Source: Opitutales bacterium
Lineage (GTDB): Bacteria; Verrucomicrobiota; Verrucomicrobiia; Opitutales; Intestinicryptomonadaceae
DNA: 64,000 bases
Assembly (NCBI GenBank): GCA_015061945.1
Contig: SUVP01000002.1
Span: 124,001-188,000 of the forward strand
Direction: 5' to 3'
Shown: piece by piece, positions 160-41,700 of the stretch
How the letters are laid out: every line of letters starts with the position of its first letter
Numbering within the stretch: position 1 is the stretch's first letter
Notes under the pieces: model-generated
What the model was told of the DNA's origin: nothing
The model's database searches: none
The model's input: only the letters and a program-made list of their open reading frames with translations
Position numbers and translations under genes: made by a program

Positions 160-2130
160 ATGAGAAAACTATACCTGATAATAATATCTATATTTGTAGC
201 ATCATTGTCGTTTGCTACTCAAACGACACAATTAACGGTTTCTGAAGTTATGGCAACACTTGAGAAATCAGCAGACTACCATATGAGAAATATAGCAGTT
301 TCGGCACTCACTAATGTAAATTGGGATTATAGCGAAATGCCAACTCGCGTGTGGCACATTTCTCCCTATTACGATGGTATGCTCGCACTGGCAAGGGTTT
401 CGGGTAATCCAATCTATTGGAAAGAAGTTTTGCGACACGGCACATCGGTCGGTTGGACGCCAAATCCAAATGCAAAAGCGTTTTATCATGCCGATGATCA
501 TGCCGTCGGACATGCTTGGCTTGATTGTTATCTTGCGGATAAGTCGCGTACAGAACGTTTGAATCCTATCAAAAAGCTTTTCGACAAAATCATTAACGAC
601 ACAAAAACATTTGATATGTCCAAATTCAATATTCGCAGACATGGACATACGCCACTTCAGACATGGACTTGGTGCGATGCACTCTTTATGGCACCACCAA
701 CCCTTGCACGATTGTATATTATCACTGGTGATAAAAAATATCTCGACTATATGAACCAAGAATTCAAGTGGTGCTATGATACGATGTTCGACAAAGAAGA
801 AAACTTATTTTATCGAGACACAAGATTTATCGGTAAGAGAACTAAAAATGGAAAAAAGATAATTTGGTCGCGCGGTGATGGGTGGGTCGTTGGCGGATTA
901 ACTCAAGTGATTTCACTACTTCCCAAAGACGAACCGAGCAGAAAATTTTATGAAGATTTGTTTGTTGCAATGATGACTAAAATTGTAACGCTGCAAGGAT
1001 CCGATGGCTTGTGGACTGTAAATCTTATCGATGCAGAAGATATTAAAGGTGGCGAAACCAGTGGTAGTGCATTCTTTACTTACGCATTGGCGTGGGGAAT
1101 TAACAACGGATACCTCGAACGTGAAAAATATTTCTCGCAAACAATAAAAGCTTGGAAGGGTCTTCTTACAAGAATCAACGATAACGGCAAAGTTGGATAC
1201 GTTCAACCTGTAGGCTCCAAGCCTAATTCATTTTCAAAAGATACAACCCATGCTTACGGTGTCGGAGCCTTCCTCTTGGCTGGTTCTGAAATAATCAAAT
1301 TGTTGGGTGGGGGGGCAAATGTGTCAGATGCAGAACTTGCTCGCAGAGCACAAGCCATTTACGATGCAGAGTCCCCACAAGCACGTGTTTATATTGAACC
1401 ACGTCGCAAAGATGATGTCGCTTGGGAGAATGATAAAATGGCATTTCGCGTTTATGGACCAGCATTGAAAGATTCAATAGAAAATAGCGGTATCGATATT
1501 TGGGCAAAAACTGTTTCATACCCAGTTGTAAATAAATGGTACGAAGACAATTTTGCAAAAAGACGAAGCTATCACAAAGATTACGGCGAAGGTTGCGATT
1601 CTTACAAGGTTGCCGATAGTGTTGGTCTTGGTGGTACTGGTATTTGGAAAAACGGTAAACTTTACCAAAGCAATGTTTACGCATACGCTGATGTAATCTG
1701 GCAAGCAGAAGGCAAAATTAAATTTGTTTTGACTTACCATTACAATGTCGAAGGTAAAGATTATACAGAATACAAGGTTATCTCGTTAAAAGTAGGAGAC
1801 GATTTCTGTAAAGTACAGTCGAAATTTCGTTCAGGTAAACGCACTTGGAACGGAAAACTTTACGAGAAAGATACAGTGAAAGATTTAGAGGTTGCCGTTG
1901 GCATTCTTGCACAAAGTTCCAATGCAAATGCGACTTTAGCAAACGGCAATATCACTGTTGAAGACAAGATGTCTGGCAAAACTTCTATTGTTCAAAAGGT
2001 AAAAACAAGAGGCAATTTTGTCGGGTACAAGTCTCTCGACTTTGGAAAAACAAAACAACATCTTGCAATATTGAAAACAGACGAAAACGGAGATATTCAT
2101 TATGAAATCGGTTATACTCTCAAAAAGTAG
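160..2130 (+). CDS. Secreted GH88/GH105-type unsaturated glucuronyl/rhamnogalacturonyl hydrolase with C-terminal DUF4861-like domain
   Basis: Signal peptide MRKLYLIIISIFVASLSFA; motifs HADDHAVGHAWLDCY, HTPLQTWTWCDALFMAPPTLARL, IWSRGDGWVVGGL typical of GH105. Confidence 0.85.
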   Translation: MRKLYLIIISIFVASLSFATQTTQLTVSEVMATLEKSADYHMRNIAVSALTNVNWDYSEMPTRVWHISPYYDGMLALARVSGNPIYWKEVLRHGTSVGWTPNPNAKAFYHADDHAVGHAWLDCYLADKSRTERLNPIKKLFDKIINDTKTFDMSKFNIRRHGHTPLQTWTWCDALFMAPPTLARLYIITGDKKYLDYMNQEFKWCYDTMFDKEENLFYRDTRFIGKRTKNGKKIIWSRGDGWVVGGLTQVISLLPKDEPSRKFYEDLFVAMMTKIVTLQGSDGLWTVNLIDAEDIKGGETSGSAFFTYALAWGINNGYLEREKYFSQTIKAWKGLLTRINDNGKVGYVQPVGSKPNSFSKDTTHAYGVGAFLLAGSEIIKLLGGGANVSDAELARRAQAIYDAESPQARVYIEPRRKDDVAWENDKMAFRVYGPALKDSIENSGIDIWAKTVSYPVVNKWYEDNFAKRRSYHKDYGEGCDSYKVADSVGLGGTGIWKNGKLYQSNVYAYADVIWQAEGKIKFVLTYHYNVEGKDYTEYKVISLKVGDDFCKVQSKFRSGKRTWNGKLYEKDTVKDLEVAVGILAQSSNANATLANGNITVEDKMSGKTSIVQKVKTRGNFVGYKSLDFGKTKQHLAILKTDENGDIHYEIGYTLKK

Positions 2131-26020: not shown

Positions 26021-26057
26021 AGAGCATTCAGAATTTATCTGAGTGCTCTCTTTTTTT
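26021..26057. terminator. Terminator after gapA
   Basis: AGAGCATTCAGA-ATTTA-TCTGAGTGCTCT + T tract. Confidence 0.8.
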
Positions 26058-26154
26058 GACACTCTTGTCCAAAGAATGCAGACGAAATGGAAGCCTTATT
26101 TTCCAAAGGTGGAAAAATGGAAATCATCGAGAAAGAGGTAAAAGGTGACACTAT

Positions 26155-26424
26155 TTATTTAACAGTGGAGGAAGTTTTATGATGAACCAAGGGCAACTTA
26201 TTATAAAAGCTTTTTCCAGATTTTATGCGATTCAAAAAGTTCTGATGCATATATTCAGAATATCTAACAGGATCAGACAAGCCATGAAGTTGGGCAAGTT
26301 CTATACCTCTCAAACTCTTTTCCACTTCAGACATCAAAGAATCGTTTTCAATGCGTTCGCATTCCGCATTTATCCATTCAAAAAGCGGATCGCTACATTT
26401 ACCAAATTCTTCGTTATTAGCCAT
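26155..26424 (-). CDS. Hypothetical 89-aa protein
   Basis: MANNEEFGKCSDPLFEWINAECERIENDSLMSEVEKSLRGIELAQLHG...; normal acidic soluble composition, unlike the opposite-strand ORF; first ATG in ORF 26155..26445. Confidence 0.5.
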   Translation of the reverse strand: MANNEEFGKCSDPLFEWINAECERIENDSLMSEVEKSLRGIELAQLHGLSDPVRYSEYMHQNFLNRIKSGKSFYNKLPLVHHKTSSTVK

Positions 26425-26502
26425 AACACAAACACCATCGGACAAAATTTCTAAAAAAACAAGTAAAAATGTTCAATATTTCATTACAGGCAAAAGGTAA
26501 TC

Positions 26503-26676
26503 CTACTGAAAATTTGCAAAAGTATTAGCAACCCCATTTATAGAATTTGAAAGATTGCCAAATCCAAGAGCATTTATCTTTGCAATTTCTGCATTGAGTT
26601 CTTGAAGTTGCGAAAGTAATTTTGCAACCTCCTCTTGATTTACTATTGTGCTAATATTTATTGTAAAATCTGACAT
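26503..26676 (-). CDS. Hypothetical 57-aa protein
   Basis: MSDFTINISTIVNQEEVAKLLSQLQELNAEIAKINALGFGNLSNSINGVANTFANFQ; coiled-coil-like heptads. Confidence 0.45.
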   Translation of the reverse strand: MSDFTINISTIVNQEEVAKLLSQLQELNAEIAKINALGFGNLSNSINGVANTFANFQ

Positions 26677-26684
26677 TTTTAGTT

Positions 26685-26721
26685 CGATTTTTCTTGAATT
26701 GTTAAAAAAATGTGCGATATT
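26685..26721 (+). promoter_or_regulatory. Conserved upstream block of small-peptide unit A (promoter-like)
   Basis: CGATTTTTCTTGAATTGTTAAAAAAATGTGCGATATT; nearly repeated at 26984..27020 and, more diverged, from 27274. Confidence 0.5.
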
Positions 26722-26735
26722 CTGCTTATACAACG

Positions 26736-26909
26736 ATGATACAAGAGATTACATTTTTAGAATTTTTAGAGGTTATATTGAGCTTTATGCCTTATATTCT
26801 TTTGTGGATTTTTTTAGTATTTGTTGGTTGGACTATCATCGGGTGGTTTCAGTCTCATAAATTTCGTACCTACGGTGAGTCCTTCCATGATGAGTATATA
26901 GATCCTTAA
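26736..26909 (+). CDS. Small single-TM peptide, unit A (57 aa)
   Basis: MIQEITFLEFLEVILSFMPYILLWIFLVFVGWTIIGWFQSHKFRTYGESFHDEYIDP; same architecture repeated twice downstream. Confidence 0.6.
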   Translation: MIQEITFLEFLEVILSFMPYILLWIFLVFVGWTIIGWFQSHKFRTYGESFHDEYIDP

Positions 26910-26922
26910 CCCTTTTCGCTTT

Positions 26923-26952
26923 CCCTCAGTTCAGAGTTTAATCTGCTGAGGG
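26923..26952 (+). terminator. Hairpin of unit A
   Basis: CCCTCAGTTCAGAGTTTAATCTGCTGAGGG followed by TTTTTGTT. Confidence 0.75.
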
Positions 26953-26983
26953 TTTTTGTTATCGTGTAGCGTTTTCATTTATC

Positions 26984-27020
26984 CGATTTTTCTTGATTTG
27001 TTAAAATTTTGTGCGATATT
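26984..27020 (+). promoter_or_regulatory. Conserved upstream block of unit B
   Basis: CGATTTTTCTTGATTTGTTAAAATTTTGTGCGATATT. Confidence 0.5.
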
Positions 27021-27030
27021 TCTCTTAGAA

Positions 27031-27189
27031 ATGGAAACGGAACCTACATTATTATTTAAGATTTTTGATTTAATACTGCAGATTATTGTGTTTTTTGTGG
27101 TAATGGGTGTCTTCGGTTTATTTATATGGTTTTGTGATTGCTTTAGTAATATCAAAGGTCCTTCTTTTTACGATAGGTATATAAAATAA
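27031..27189 (+). CDS. Small single-TM peptide, unit B (52 aa)
   Basis: METEPTLLFKIFDLILQIIVFFVVMGVFGLFIWFCDCFSNIKGPSFYDRYIK. Confidence 0.6.
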   Translation: METEPTLLFKIFDLILQIIVFFVVMGVFGLFIWFCDCFSNIKGPSFYDRYIK

Positions 27190-27212
27190 TACGCTCTAAC
27201 CCTTTTCGTTTT

Positions 27213-27242
27213 CCCTCAGTTCAGAGTTTAATCTGCTGAGAG
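27213..27242 (+). terminator. Hairpin of unit B
   Basis: CCCTCAGTTCAGAGTTTAATCTGCTGAGAG, one base different from unit A. Confidence 0.7.
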
Positions 27243-27321
27243 ATTTTGTTATCGTATAGCGTTTTCATTTATCCAATTTTGCTTGATTTGTAAAAAAAAG
27301 CACACGATAGTATAAATATAA

Positions 27322-27462
27322 ATGGATACTATATTAGATATTTTTATAAACCTTTTGATCGTTATTGGAATTCCAACAATAATGCTTTTCTTCTATTCGT
27401 TGTTTGAAAAATTTTCTCAAAAATATGGTACAACCACTATTTACGATCATCTTCCAAAATGA
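27322..27462 (+). CDS. Small single-TM peptide, unit C (46 aa, absent from the ORF track)
   Basis: Hand-translated MDTILDIFINLLIVIGIPTIMLFFYSLFEKFSQKYGTTTIYDHLPK then TGA; flanked by the same upstream block and hairpin as units A and B. Confidence 0.55.
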   Translation: MDTILDIFINLLIVIGIPTIMLFFYSLFEKFSQKYGTTTIYDHLPK

Positions 27463-27490
27463 TACATAGATCCTTAACCCTTTTCGCATT

Positions 27491-27520
27491 CCCTCAGTTC
27501 AGAGTTTAATCTGCTGAGGG
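27491..27520 (+). terminator. Hairpin of unit C
   Basis: CCCTCAGTTCAGAGTTTAATCTGCTGAGGG, identical to unit A. Confidence 0.7.
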
Positions 27521-27698
27521 AATTTTCGTCTATGAGTGCTGTTTGTGCATCGAAGATTGCAAGTTTATCTCGGGTTCTGCGTTTTTCTATCGCTTTTGCA
27601 ACAAACTTTAATCGCTCTGGCGAAAGCTCAAGCAAAAATGCTCAATCCTTTATTAAAGTCAGAAAACAATGTTTTTGTAAATTGGCAGAGCAAATCGG

Positions 27699-27734: not shown

Positions 27735-28340
27735 ATGAAAATGCTGAAAAGTTTGTTAAGATATTTAACATTATCACTTGCAAGCCTCGTGATTTTCGCA
27801 TCGCTTGTATTAACTCTTGGGCTAAATAGCACAAAGTATTTGTATTCTGAGACTGGAATTTTAGAAAACACACAACTGTTGTTGCTTGCAGTGTCGTTTT
27901 TATTTTTTGTGTTTGCAGTGTTTAATCCTAAACCACGAAAAATGATTCCGCTATTTTTTGCGTCAATGACATACGCACTATTCTTGCGAGAACTTGAAAT
28001 ACGCGATATTTTCCCAAATGTACCAAACTGGATTGAATTTCTAATCGATGGCGATGTAAAACACTGCACAAATGCAGTAATAATCGCAATTCCATTGATA
28101 ATTGCAGTAATAAACTTCAAGGTATATTTTAAAGAAGCACTAAACTTTGTATTTTCAACACAATTTGTGTATTTGATTCTCACATTTGCGTTGCTTTGGT
28201 GTGGATATTTTTGCGAAAAGAAAATCCCTAACCCCCAATACGCCGAACTTGGCGAAGAAATTTTTGAAATACTCGGATATATGATGTACCTAATGTGTGC
28301 TTGCCTCACAGAATATAAAACGAGAAAAATTTCAGACTAA
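27735..28340 (+). CDS. Multi-pass integral membrane protein of unknown function
   Basis: 201 aa with about six hydrophobic segments; AAGGA before the ATG; more plausible than the antisense ORF 27659..28309. Confidence 0.65.
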   Translation: MKMLKSLLRYLTLSLASLVIFASLVLTLGLNSTKYLYSETGILENTQLLLLAVSFLFFVFAVFNPKPRKMIPLFFASMTYALFLRELEIRDIFPNVPNWIEFLIDGDVKHCTNAVIIAIPLIIAVINFKVYFKEALNFVFSTQFVYLILTFALLWCGYFCEKKIPNPQYAELGEEIFEILGYMMYLMCACLTEYKTRKISD

Positions 28341-28363: not shown

Positions 28364-28393
28364 CCCTCTGTTAAGATTCTACTCTGCAGAGGG
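28364..28393 (+). terminator. Hairpin after the 201-aa membrane protein, related to the A/B/C hairpins
   Basis: CCCTCTGTTAAGATTCTACTCTGCAGAGGG then ATTTTTTT; preceded by a C homopolymer. Confidence 0.7.
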
Positions 28394-28618
28394 ATTTTTT
28401 TCAGTATGTGAAAACTGTTTGCGGGGATATATCCACTTCCCCATTAAATAAAAAAATCGCCAAACAGAAAATATTGGCGACATTTCACTCTAATAAAATA
28501 TATGAATTTGCGATAGAAACTATTTAATTCTATTTAATATTTCGCGACGTGAAATTGTATTTTTTGGCTTCTAATCAATGCCAGTCCCTTATATTATTTT
28601 CTTATGAATAATATTACT

Positions 28619-38400: not shown

Positions 38401-38740
38401 CAAGCTCGCCATTGATTTTCAGATTATCAAAATATACAATTTCGTTCTTTCTTGTTTTAGAACGCAACATCATTCGTATCTGTTTATTCGAGCTAACCGT
38501 ACCAACTATTTTTGCAGTTTTCCATTTATCCGAACTTGCAATAAATTCAACACCTCTACCTGCTTTGCCCGATTTTATCGCCTTAAAACCATTTGGCAAA
38601 TTATCTTTATCTAAATCAAATCCACCAAAGAAAAGTATTTCGGCTGAAGCTGTCCTTGTAGCCATTTTCGAGCCAAATTGTGTCGCGAACGCACACGCAC
38701 AAACAAAAAATAAAAGTGCTGTAATTATTGCTTTTTTCAT
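35453..38740 (-). CDS. Large secreted putative glycoside hydrolase, giant paralog B
   Basis: 1095 aa; FEFEKRPNVPVRFKGANFYSLT, FNALRWRFSVENK, DPSIATIEYWNEFDLG, MTVTEYQHCYPNKY. Confidence 0.72.
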   Translation of the reverse strand: MKKAIITALLFFVCACAFATQFGSKMATRTASAEILFFGGFDLDKDNLPNGFKAIKSGKAGRGVEFIASSDKWKTAKIVGTVSSNKQIRMMLRSKTRKNEIVYFDNLKINGELVPNGDFSSDNFDGWYLPKNKKDIKPQLSIIPEKNGPSFCSDNGLFIARDLKLKKGEKVEISVDYLCADYWASSYPLDLSEYHNIVFGGKKSFVKNAKSPKNPRLYGGMKFNFVDKNGSPNIAYLRHSQKALVKYGDTTVQGKYLYILYTAEKFKYPQNGGVIIRAIFKDGRKISRFIKFGEDLRYYSQNVEALDNTLPVYIDNKEKNVGGVYITRVDLVGGGGPAPIDSIEIDSRLDLQILGATFSSKEVYTTKVIKYPKSEWTEIDTESMEVKEGSALDLSYQVADHAPAGKYGRIVVGKNGTFEFEKRPNVPVRFKGANFYSLTCQIGKEIKTKAEIDDYVKMLKKQGFNALRWRFSVENKIFDKENGIKKEYWDLYDYFLYALGREGIYSYFYLASHDIGAPNFNWNERTAIKMRMMLGYPELREAWRKYAKLQLEHINPYTKLAWKDDPSIATIEYWNEFDLGFGLNSIDSKARAILTKKFQEFLKKRYKTIDAFLAYNEEIGQKWNSGNGKIIKDFKDIHFGKYYDNQYHPDLGRFVIYLLQDVQNFYRKVVFEEIGMKVPTFQNNCVKNLFWTHCSVNIGSTTAINTYHDIATGFGVGAKSKQISAIHDSANYWRGALSRNVAGMPMTVTEYQHCYPNKYCHELALMFPTYSAFQDFAGLMEFDSPVAKNASVLGFKRIGVNPILRVNDFLTSFFYLRGDIKPSKNRVDIVFDNKFFQESKFASGALHQEQSKIALITGLRLSFPDVKRVPELDKVKIAKPTISYQPTGVSKLTQSFHATSLAGVWESTFSWDEVMADLKKKKILTADNRSDPKNAIFETDNKQIYMDSKNRLLQVNTPKSVGTTVNANSKDLQVGVLAVKSSSVDASVALVSLDNKKLENSSRLILTFATDAVLKSSKFSINRKHFLDFGKPPVLIKTGKLNVEIKTNGKSFVIYPLKMTGERMKKIPSKLENGVLKFAVDNHKTPALYFEIVAE

Positions 38741-38743
38741 ACG

Positions 38744-41700
38744 TTATTTCCTTTCGATTTCAAAATATAGCGTTGGAGTTTTGCTGTTATCGATAGACAA
38801 TTTCAAAATGCCATTTTCAACTTTAGCTGGAATTTCAGCCATACGCTCGCCATTCATTTTGAGCGGATACACTGCGAAGTTCTTGCCATTAGTTTTTATC
38901 ATTACATCAATTTTCCCAATCTTAATCAGCACTGGCGACGGAATGTATTGTAACACTTGTTTTCTCGAAACAGAGAATTTTGACTTCTCCCAAACTGAGT
39001 CGGTTGCAAAGGTCAAAACCATTTTCGATGAGTTTACAATTTCTTTGTTATCGAGCGAAACCAATGCAACTGCACCATCGACATTTGACGACTTCACTAT
39101 GAGCGAGCCAACTCGCAAATTCTTTGAATTTGTATCGATAGTTGTACCCACCGACTTCGGCGTATTCACTTGCAACAAGCGATTTTTTGAATCCATATAA
39201 ATCTGCTTATTGTCGGTCTCAAAGATTGCATTTTTGGGGTCGGAACGGTTATCAGGCGAAAGGATTTTCTTTGCTTTTAAATCAGCCATAACCTTGTCCC
39301 AACTAAATTTTGAGTGCCATACACTATCGACCGACGACGCATTGAATGATTGTCTTACACGTGAAATACCCTGCGGTTTATACGATATTGTAGCAGGTTT
39401 AATTCTTACATTTTTAAGTTCTGGCATGCGTTTGACATCGGGGAAACTCAATTTAAAGCCTGTTAGCAAGCCAATCATAGACTCGTCTTGAAGCAATGCC
39501 CCCGATGCAAAATTCGATTTTTGGAAGAAGTTTTCATCCAACACAATATCTACTCTATTTTGCGATGGCTTAACATCGCCACGCAAGTAGAAGAAGCTCG
39601 TTAGAAAATCGTTCACACGATGAACTGGGTTCACACCGACATTTCTGATATGTGCGTCGAGATTATTTCTCGCCATTGGAGTATCAAAAATCATCAAAGC
39701 TCCAATGTTTTGGAATGCCGAGTACACTGGGAACATCAGCGCTAACTCGTGGCAATATTGGTTTGGATAGCAATGTTGATATTCTGTTACAGTCAACGGC
39801 ATACCTGCGACATTTCTCGACAACGCACCACGCCAATAATTACCGCTATTATGAATAGAACTTGTCTGCTTTACTCTTGCACCAACGCTGGTACTCGAAG
39901 CTATATCGTGATATGTGTTGATTGCAGTCGATGAACCGATATTCACACCACAGTGTGTCCAGTACAGATTTTTCACGCAGTTATTTTGGAATGTAACTGC
40001 CTTGCAACCGATTTCATCAGAGACAACTTTGCGATAGAATTGCAAGACATCTTGCATCAACGCAATTACAAAACGCCCAAAATCAGGGTGGAACGAGTTT
40101 GCAAAGTAGAGATCTAACGTGATGTCTTCAAAATCTGTAAGAGGCTTTTTTGTTGCCCACTTGCAATCGATTTGCTTGTTATACGCCAAAAATGCGTCGA
40201 TTGTCTTGTAGCGATGTTTCAAGAATTCACGGAGTTTTTTTGCCAACAGATTTTTTGTCTTTGCATTGACACGATTCAATCCGAATCCTAAATCAAATTC
40301 ATTCCAGTACTCGATTGTTGCTATTGCCGGCTCATCTTTCCAAGCAACACCTGTATATTTATTGACGTGCGATAATTGATAAATTGCCCACTTACGCCAT
40401 ATTTCACGGATTTGTGGGTCGCCTAACATCATACGCATTTTGATTGTAGTGCGATCGTTCCAGTCAAAATTAGGCACACCAACATCGTGGCTGGTAATGT
40501 AGAAGTATGTATAAATACCTTCACGCTTGAGAGCATAAAGGAAGTAGTCGTACATATCGAGATACTCTGCCTTTACTTCCGATTTCTCATTCAAGATACC
40601 TTCTTCGACATTAAAACGCCAACGCACTGCGTTGTAGCCTTGTTTTTTTATCATCTTAACATAGAAATCTATTTCTTCTTTTGTTTTAATTTTATCACCT
40701 ATTCTTTTTGAAAAATTATAAACATTTGCACCTTTAAATCGGATAGGCACATTAGGACGTTTTTCAAATTCAAAGTCTCCATTTTTACCTACGACAACTC
40801 TGCCATATTTACCTGCTGGGGCGTGATGATTTGTGAATTGGGAAACATCGAGAGCAGATCCTTCTTTTATATCGAGATCTTCCATATCAAGTTTTACCCA
40901 CTTATCCGACGTGTATTTTAAGATTTCTGTTGTGAATACTTCTCTTGACGAAAGTGTTGCACCATAAATTTGAAAATCAATCATCGAGCTAATCTCGATA
41001 GTCTTGATTGGTTCTTCATTTCCGCCTGCGAGTAAGTCTACACGGGTAATATACACACCACCTGTATTTTCTTTTTTATTGTCGATATGCACTTGCAACG
41101 CATTGTCCAACGCCTCGATTTTATTGTCGAAAAATTGTATATCTTCGCCCAATTTAAGAGAGCGAGAGCGAGTTCTCCCCGACACAAATTTTACATTGAC
41201 CCTCACCACATCTGGCTTCTTTTTGACAACTCGTTTTGTACTGTACATCAAGTACAAATATTTTGCAGAAATTTGATTTTCTATTTCATATTTTTTAGAT
41301 TCCGACGGTTTTAAATACATAACATTTGGCTGACCATTTTTGTCAGCAAAATTAAACATCATTCCGCCGTAAACTTTCGGAGATTTGGGAGCTTTGAGAT
41401 TTTTTGCAAACGACGATTCATCGCCGACAACAACATTGCAATCTTTTGAAATATCAAGCATAAGAGAGTCGGACCAATTATTTTCAGCCAAACAATCTAT
41501 TTCAATTTCAACACGTTGCCCTTCTTGCAAAGGAATGTTTCGCATAAGGTATCTACCAACTTCAACATAAGCCGACTTCCCTACTCCATTCGGGATATGA
41601 GCATCTGCCAATTTTGGCAATTTCTTTTTTTTCGGCAAAAACCAACTATCAAAATTGCCTGAAGAAAAATCGCCATTAGGCAAAAGTTGACCATTCACTT

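Follow-up and report, generated by a model that had tools for sequence, protein, structure and literature searches.

The three small genes at positions 26685-27520 of the window (meaning throughout the whole 64,000-nucleotide stretch of DNA that was analysed, from an Opitutales bacterium) are probably a tandem array of prophage exclusion morons, retained after the rest of the prophage had decayed. Each of the three would be a moron, i.e. an autonomous accessory gene, with a promoter, an ORF for a membrane peptide and a terminator of its own.

Layout of the array

The array consists of three consecutive promoter–small ORF–terminator units, all on the + strand. A first-pass annotation, made from the letters of the sequence, had described three consecutive units of conserved block, ORF and hairpin, and this description is borne out, the ORFs being of 57, 52 and 46 aa and the shell around them recurring. 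The features are as follows (TM, transmembrane helix).

26694-26721, +: putative promoter 1, TTGAAT-N16-GATATT (alignment of 19 unit leaders; model R1 match, E 6.5e-12)
26736-26909, +: peptide 1, 57 aa, one TM; orthologue in the G009 prophage (L009)
26923-26952, +: terminator hairpin 1, antisense to the 3' coding end of the tail gene
26993-27020, +: putative promoter 2, TTGATT-N16-GATATT (leader alignment; model R1 match, E 9.6e-14)
27031-27189, +: peptide 2, 52 aa, one TM; relative (MNTEPTLISQ...) in the G003 prophage array
27213-27242, +: terminator hairpin 2 (sequence recurrence and folding)
27283-27311, +: putative promoter 3, TTGATT-N17-GATAGT (leader alignment; model R1 match, E 1.3e-7)
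27322-27462, +: peptide 3, 46 aa, one TM; N-terminus similar to the L006 peptide METILDMLLKFVLIVG
27491-27520, +: terminator hairpin 3 (sequence recurrence and folding)

A 100-nt segment comprising hairpin plus promoter recurs with periods of 290 and 278 nt, and the window contains three copies of the 30-nt hairpin at 0-1 mismatch, where shuffled sequences would be expected to yield none; on folding, the array hairpins each give -10.7 to -19.4 kcal/mol (z -2.5 to -5.2). The flanks had been claimed to be nearly identical, which holds for copies 1 and 2 of the repeated segment (93% identical) and for the hairpins, but not for the promoter block of unit 3, which is clearly more diverged than those of units 1 and 2. 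The peptides are indeed diverged, as had been stated, full-length identity to peptide 1 being 31% for peptide 2 and 18% for peptide 3, while the related C-terminal tail motif that had been attributed to all of them is common to peptides 1 and 2 but weak in peptide 3.

Across the whole genome the full shell (promoter block plus hairpin) has a single location, namely this array; a match to the promoter block on contig C14 (L005) of the same genome was rejected, as it lies inside a coding region and is at chance level (E 1e-3). Elsewhere in the window, at 28368-28403 (+), a terminator-like hairpin (CCTCTG..CAGAGG, then a T-run) lies 3' of the gene for a 201-aa membrane protein (27735-28340); it is similar to the array hairpins in form and different in sequence.

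Predicted promoters and terminators

When the leaders of 19 units, from the window and its relatives, are aligned, a near-invariant pair of boxes is seen (TTGAtT-N15-17-CGATAnT), with TG preceding the second box in most of them. This is plausibly a sigma-70 extended -10 promoter, and one that a simple promoter scan overlooks because the boxes score below its cut-off. In most units the ATG lies only ~7-23 nt past the predicted -10 box, so that the messages are predicted to be leaderless or nearly so. At the other end of the unit the hairpin and T-run are conserved, 84% of pair cells being retained and two positions having changed on both sides; the outer stem is retained across the set, including one G-C to A-U double change, but the inner stem slides, its register varying from unit to unit, and for this reason the claim of a terminator is confined to the outer stem. 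With these signals at either end, each unit appears to have a promoter and a terminator of its own.

Of 14 matches to the promoter pattern in seven surveyed prophage loci, 12 fall on the antisense strand, at two sites only (referred to here as sites A and B, the array units occupying site B), and the other two lie within coding sequence. A search across the family with the promoter model found units in three genera.

Phage genes on the opposite strand

Searching with the shell DNA revealed further loci in seven genomes of the same genus. With few exceptions, the promoter block at these loci immediately adjoins the start codon of a divergently oriented gene that encodes a protein of ~1000 aa, and the hairpin, read on the opposite strand, falls within the final codons of the gene that flanks the unit at its other end. 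The large protein is a tape measure protein (TMP), as judged from a match to phrog_27166 (E 8e-4) together with its position and length, so that in intact prophages of these same-genus Opitutales/Puniceicoccaceae genomes the unit is antisense to the late operon and occupies the interval that separates a small tail gene from the ~1000-aa TMP. The tail gene preceding the TMP occupies the tail-chaperone position, and it is from this position that its putative identity is taken; insertion of accessory genes between it and the TMP is seen in the G001, G003, G005, G007 and G009 prophages. In the window the following pieces of phage sequence, and of a second antisense site, can be recognised.

26068-26180, +: 3' end of a Mu gp30/MuF-like head gene (remnant); 26068-26522 is 86% nt identical to L017 7388-7842 (G009 prophage)
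26155-26424, -: site-A small gene, 89 aa, no TM, intact; aa identity to the site-A ORFs of L017, L046 and L022 is 38-76%
26434-26462, -: degenerate promoter-like pair of the site-A gene, TTGTTT-N17-GATGGT; layout as in the site-A promoter-like blocks of relatives
26503-26676, -: truncated TMP N-terminus, 57 of ~1000 aa (profile A3 match, E 4.4e-8; tblastx to the TMP starts of L009, L010 and L014)
27474-27635, -: C-terminal fragment of the tail gene preceding the TMP, 53 codons (tblastx ~50-65% aa identity, same position in the G001, G005, G007 and G009 prophages)

On the sequence evidence, then, the conserved shell is dual-use, the start of the TMP lying opposite the moron promoter and the 3' end of the tail gene opposite the moron terminator. 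The first-pass annotation had taken the shell to be regulatory, which is right as regards promoter and terminator but incomplete, since the opposite strand also codes; these opposite-strand phage genes, the prophage origin and the second antisense gene at 26155-26424 (-) were all missed. Integron-like cassettes, which would likewise present conserved flanks around variable ORFs, are ruled out, the flanks being the ends of phage genes.

A decayed Mu-like prophage

The prophages that carry the unit have a Mu-type portal (Portal_Mu, 8e-54), a terminase (Terminase_6C, 6e-17), a cement protein and head proteins, and a MuA-like transposase is found in unit-carrying relatives (phrog_310, 1.6e-12). 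The stretch L017 7388-7842 spans the 3' end of a 446-aa head gene, and the gene at the corresponding position in L015 (3430-4701) matches phrog_220, a minor head protein (E 6e-7). One copy of the unit lies on a 31.5-kb viral contig in IMG/VR, which matches a prophage of Puniceicoccaceae bacterium Marseille-Q1082 (Verrucomicrobiota). By sequence comparison the window locus is thus a remnant of a Mu-like transposable prophage, of which the portal, the MuA-type transposase and the terminase are seen in the relatives. Relatives of its TMP were absent from 50,697 public phage records, and in IMG/VR they amounted to the one contig plus one weak relative.

Within the window, resemblance to these prophages is confined to 26051-27645 and one short tblastx match at 38637-38753, and takes the form of fragments only: the tip of the head gene, the 89-aa antisense ORF, 57 TMP codons, 53 tail-gene codons and the three units. 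The two antisense genes of the window are now divergent, unlike their arrangement in the G009 prophage, and inversion must therefore have occurred as well as deletions. No full-length TMP is present in the window's genome, which is 97% complete. A full prophage elsewhere in that genome was considered and rejected, its sole Mu-portal locus (C14, ~26 kb) being a separate head-gene remnant with no recognisable TMP.

As a separate observation, L056/L057 (G000 contig C14, about 26-34 kb) and L058 contain a Mu-like head cluster (portal, protease, cement, capsid-like) with no recognisable TMP. Its location is near purH in G000 and likewise in G007. Of 19 family genomes, 18 have a Mu portal gene, and the cluster near purH is perhaps a domesticated element.

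A mosaic family of predicted membrane peptides

About 20 distinct peptides were recovered, of 45–76 aa and with one or two TM. In the usual build an N-terminus that is short and acidic is followed by one TM helix and a fast-changing, mostly basic tail; some of the peptides instead form two-TM hairpins, in which the second TM and the tail are shared with the single-TM forms. Both layouts are consistent with a predicted cytoplasmic location of the C-terminal tail, the positive-inside argument being weak for peptide 1 because its tail carries a net negative charge. As the first-pass annotation had indicated in recognising no named family, searches of Pfam, PHROGs, NCBIfam and PADLOC gave no usable match of the peptides to a named family of exclusion, defence or phage proteins, so that current family libraries recognise none of them.

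The N-terminal and C-terminal halves of the peptides recombine independently, mosaic pairs showing 92-95% nt identity in one half and none detectable in the other. For instance, a 112-nt stretch covering tail and terminator is 94.6% identical between G1C1 and G5C16, whose N-terminal halves are unrelated, while G11a and G5C122 agree at 93% over their first 157 nt but have unrelated tails. Nor is the window the only place where arrays occur: L014 (G003), from a prophage whose TMP is full-length, has three intact units and one degenerate unit with repeated TMP 5' ends between them, and G011 carries two units.

Selection and retention of the reading frames

The first-pass annotation had itself proposed looking for homologues with a conserved reading frame, and these were found. 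Related pairs of peptides gave dN/dS values of 0.10, 0.04, 0.24, 0.36 and 0.43; the 0.10 is that of the L012/L011b pair (14 synonymous and 7 nonsynonymous changes), the 0.04 that of G18/G17, which come from two different species and have truncated or absent TMPs, and 0.24 was found for G6C89/G4C25. Very close pairs gave 0.7-0.8, from few changes. For the window's own peptides, the ratio is 0.24 for peptide 1 against its L009 orthologue (dN 0.68, dS 2.8) and 0.17 for peptide 2 against its relative in the G003 array, values that are supportive only, because dS is near saturation. These substitution patterns indicate that the peptide orthologues are under purifying selection.

Further evidence comes from eleven remnant loci (G000; G003 C12; G005 C16, C86, C122 and C198; G006 C89; G011 C58; G014 C44; G017 C342; G018 C348), located by promoter or TMP searches and not by searching for ORFs, in which the TMP is missing, truncated or stop-filled. 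The peptide ORFs are open in 11/11 of these, although some of the contigs are short and genome completeness is 79-97%; neighbouring TMP fragments of 61-72 codons contain two stops in G014 and four in G006. In a neutral simulation involving substitutions only (without indels), the frames of peptides 1 and 2 stayed open in 3-5% of cases at the observed divergence. Under neutral decay, however, a short ORF stays open more readily than a long gene does, and retention by itself is therefore suggestive but not proof. In four remnants (the window, G003 C12, G014 and G018) the site-A and site-B units adjoin, the intervening late genes having been lost, and that they do so in at least two relative orientations suggests independent loss around retained units.

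Proposed function

Units antisense to the late operon would be expected to be on in the lysogen, where the late operon is silent, and to be switched off on induction, when late transcription would run through them from the opposite side. The most likely location of the peptides is the inner membrane, where they may block entry of the genomes of superinfecting related phages, acting through the TMP or an inner-membrane partner in the manner of HK97 gp15. Recombination through the shared promoter/TMP start on one side and the hairpin/tail-gene end on the other would multiply the units and swap their tails, giving a small repertoire, and the host may then have retained the array once the rest of the prophage was lost. 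An exclusion function is argued here from anatomy and position, and on these grounds the balance of probability is in its favour; of the guesses offered in the first-pass annotation, it is the branch comprising phage-defence or small membrane effectors that the evidence appears to favour.

The closest parallel is HK97 gp15, a TMP-adjacent moron with superinfection-exclusion activity (HK97 record; PMC10883804). It has 62 aa, with an acidic N-terminus, one TM and a polar tail, followed by a terminator, and its gene lies between that for gp14 (a frameshift product) and the tape measure (HK97 record). The array units resemble it in their position between a putative tail-chaperone gene and the TMP, in size (~60 aa), in predicted topology and in having a terminator, and the hydropathy of the array peptides fits its single-TM build, although some family members have two TM. 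However, gp15 is encoded in the sense direction and singly, whereas the array units are antisense, tandem and mosaic-tailed, in Mu-like phages of Verrucomicrobiota. On inspection no similarity to the gp15 sequence was found, and as the likeness is one of position and build the peptides are not assigned to the gp15 family.

Other exclusion systems are less close. TP-J34 Ltp, Tuc2009 Sie2009 and P22 SieA, membrane or surface proteins expressed from prophages, prevent the injection of DNA, and the TP-J34 block is overcome by changes in the tape measure (PMC10883804, PMC3952083), but they are larger proteins or lipoproteins, at other genome positions, and no sequence relation to the array peptides was found. 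Labelling has also placed the tape measure beside entry proteins of the inner membrane, and it has been crosslinked to variants of SNIPE, a defence nuclease (PMC13190303). Small exclusion genes are present in a Mu-like (B3-type) transposable phage, namely olg1 and gene 10 of Fc02 (P. aeruginosa), but these lie by the repressor and not beside the TMP, and Olg1 is soluble (PMC9936078).

The exclusion morons known so far are as a rule single genes, whereas here there is a homologous family in arrays. Such a tail-swapped family, with tandem arrays and many natural chimaeras beside matching TMPs, would allow a direct test of how very small membrane proteins recognise the DNA-entry machinery of phages; the combination of a TMP start with an antisense promoter provides a sequence signature by which such genes could be found in unannotated prophages; and the array gives evidence that hosts retain moron genes after prophage decay.

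Alternative explanations

The anatomy and the evidence for selection would equally fit prophage morons with some other role in lysogeny, acting on a host membrane process, a receptor, the stress response or lysogen fitness instead of blocking entry of phage DNA. Moron functions are diverse (PMC7067206), and DicB, a small protein of a cryptic prophage, is described as acting on inner-membrane receptor proteins (PMC6832061). Nonetheless the TMP-adjacent position, the gp15-like anatomy and the swapping tails fit phage antagonism better, and such a role seems rather doubtful. That the array is functionless and simply not yet degraded is quite unlikely: the surrounding prophage has decayed and the ORFs are short, as this would require, but the ratio of 0.04 was obtained between copies in two species whose TMPs are truncated or absent, and the frames are open in every remnant while adjacent TMP fragments carry stops.

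Two further readings turn on RNA. If the transcript were itself the effector, it would act by an antisense mechanism on the late operon of related phages as they enter. The units are indeed antisense to that operon, and in several prophages site A has non-coding, RNA-like units behind the same class of promoter; moreover, STnc6030 of the Salmonella prophage BTP1 mediates superinfection exclusion as an antisense RNA, and it and STMMW_20121 of ST64B resemble the array units in being accessory, having their own promoters and lying antisense to lytic genes (PMC7067206). STnc6030, however, acts as RNA, whereas the array units encode conserved peptides; the constraint on amino-acid sequence at site B, with frames that are always open, would be left unexplained, and a unit pairs only with late mRNA of the same allele, making this a very unlikely account. 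The remaining reading, also one of the earlier guesses, is that these are type I toxins, small hydrophobic killer peptides silenced by antisense RNA. The tandem ldr and ibs repeats of E. coli encode tiny one-TM peptides of this kind, and the array peptides are likewise short, hydrophobic and tandemly repeated. Type I loci have long structured leaders, however, whereas most of the present units have very short leaders or none; no antitoxin RNA is recognisable in the remnants, the only natural antisense, the late operon, being gone from remnants that keep the ORF; and the units are placed within a prophage late operon. Toxins of this type are thus highly improbable. The preferred reading remains that of exclusion morons.

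The second antisense site

Site A has the same class of promoter as the array and lies upstream of a head-morphogenesis gene. It contains either a protein of 89-91 aa or tandem small RNA-like units with terminators. The window has the former, for which dN/dS against L017 is about 0.5; the 89-aa protein has no family match, and its AF2 model is helical and of low confidence (pLDDT 64). It is possible, and put forward here only tentatively, that such prophages have two antisense immunity sites, one at the TMP with shuffled membrane peptides and the other, ahead of a head-morphogenesis gene, with small RNAs or a soluble protein, and that the two sites grow into tandem arrays by recombination to form a combinatorial, inheritable exclusion repertoire that hosts may keep as stand-alone anti-phage islands.

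An Rfam search of the RNA-like units in five prophage loci gave no match. Tandem RNA-like units with their own promoters and terminators, antisense to the start of a gene for head morphogenesis in Mu-like prophages, occur at L014 about 300-803 (-), L016 4049 and 4378 (-) and L015 4801 (-), with more at L097 909 and 1090 (-) and L116 1044 (-). Some of the site-A RNA-like units are very similar between genera, and unit cores such as GTGAACGAGGGTGCAGGAAGTGGCTATTCCCTCGGGATCAAGTGG and AGTGCAGTCAGTTGCGATACT recur between species and genera.
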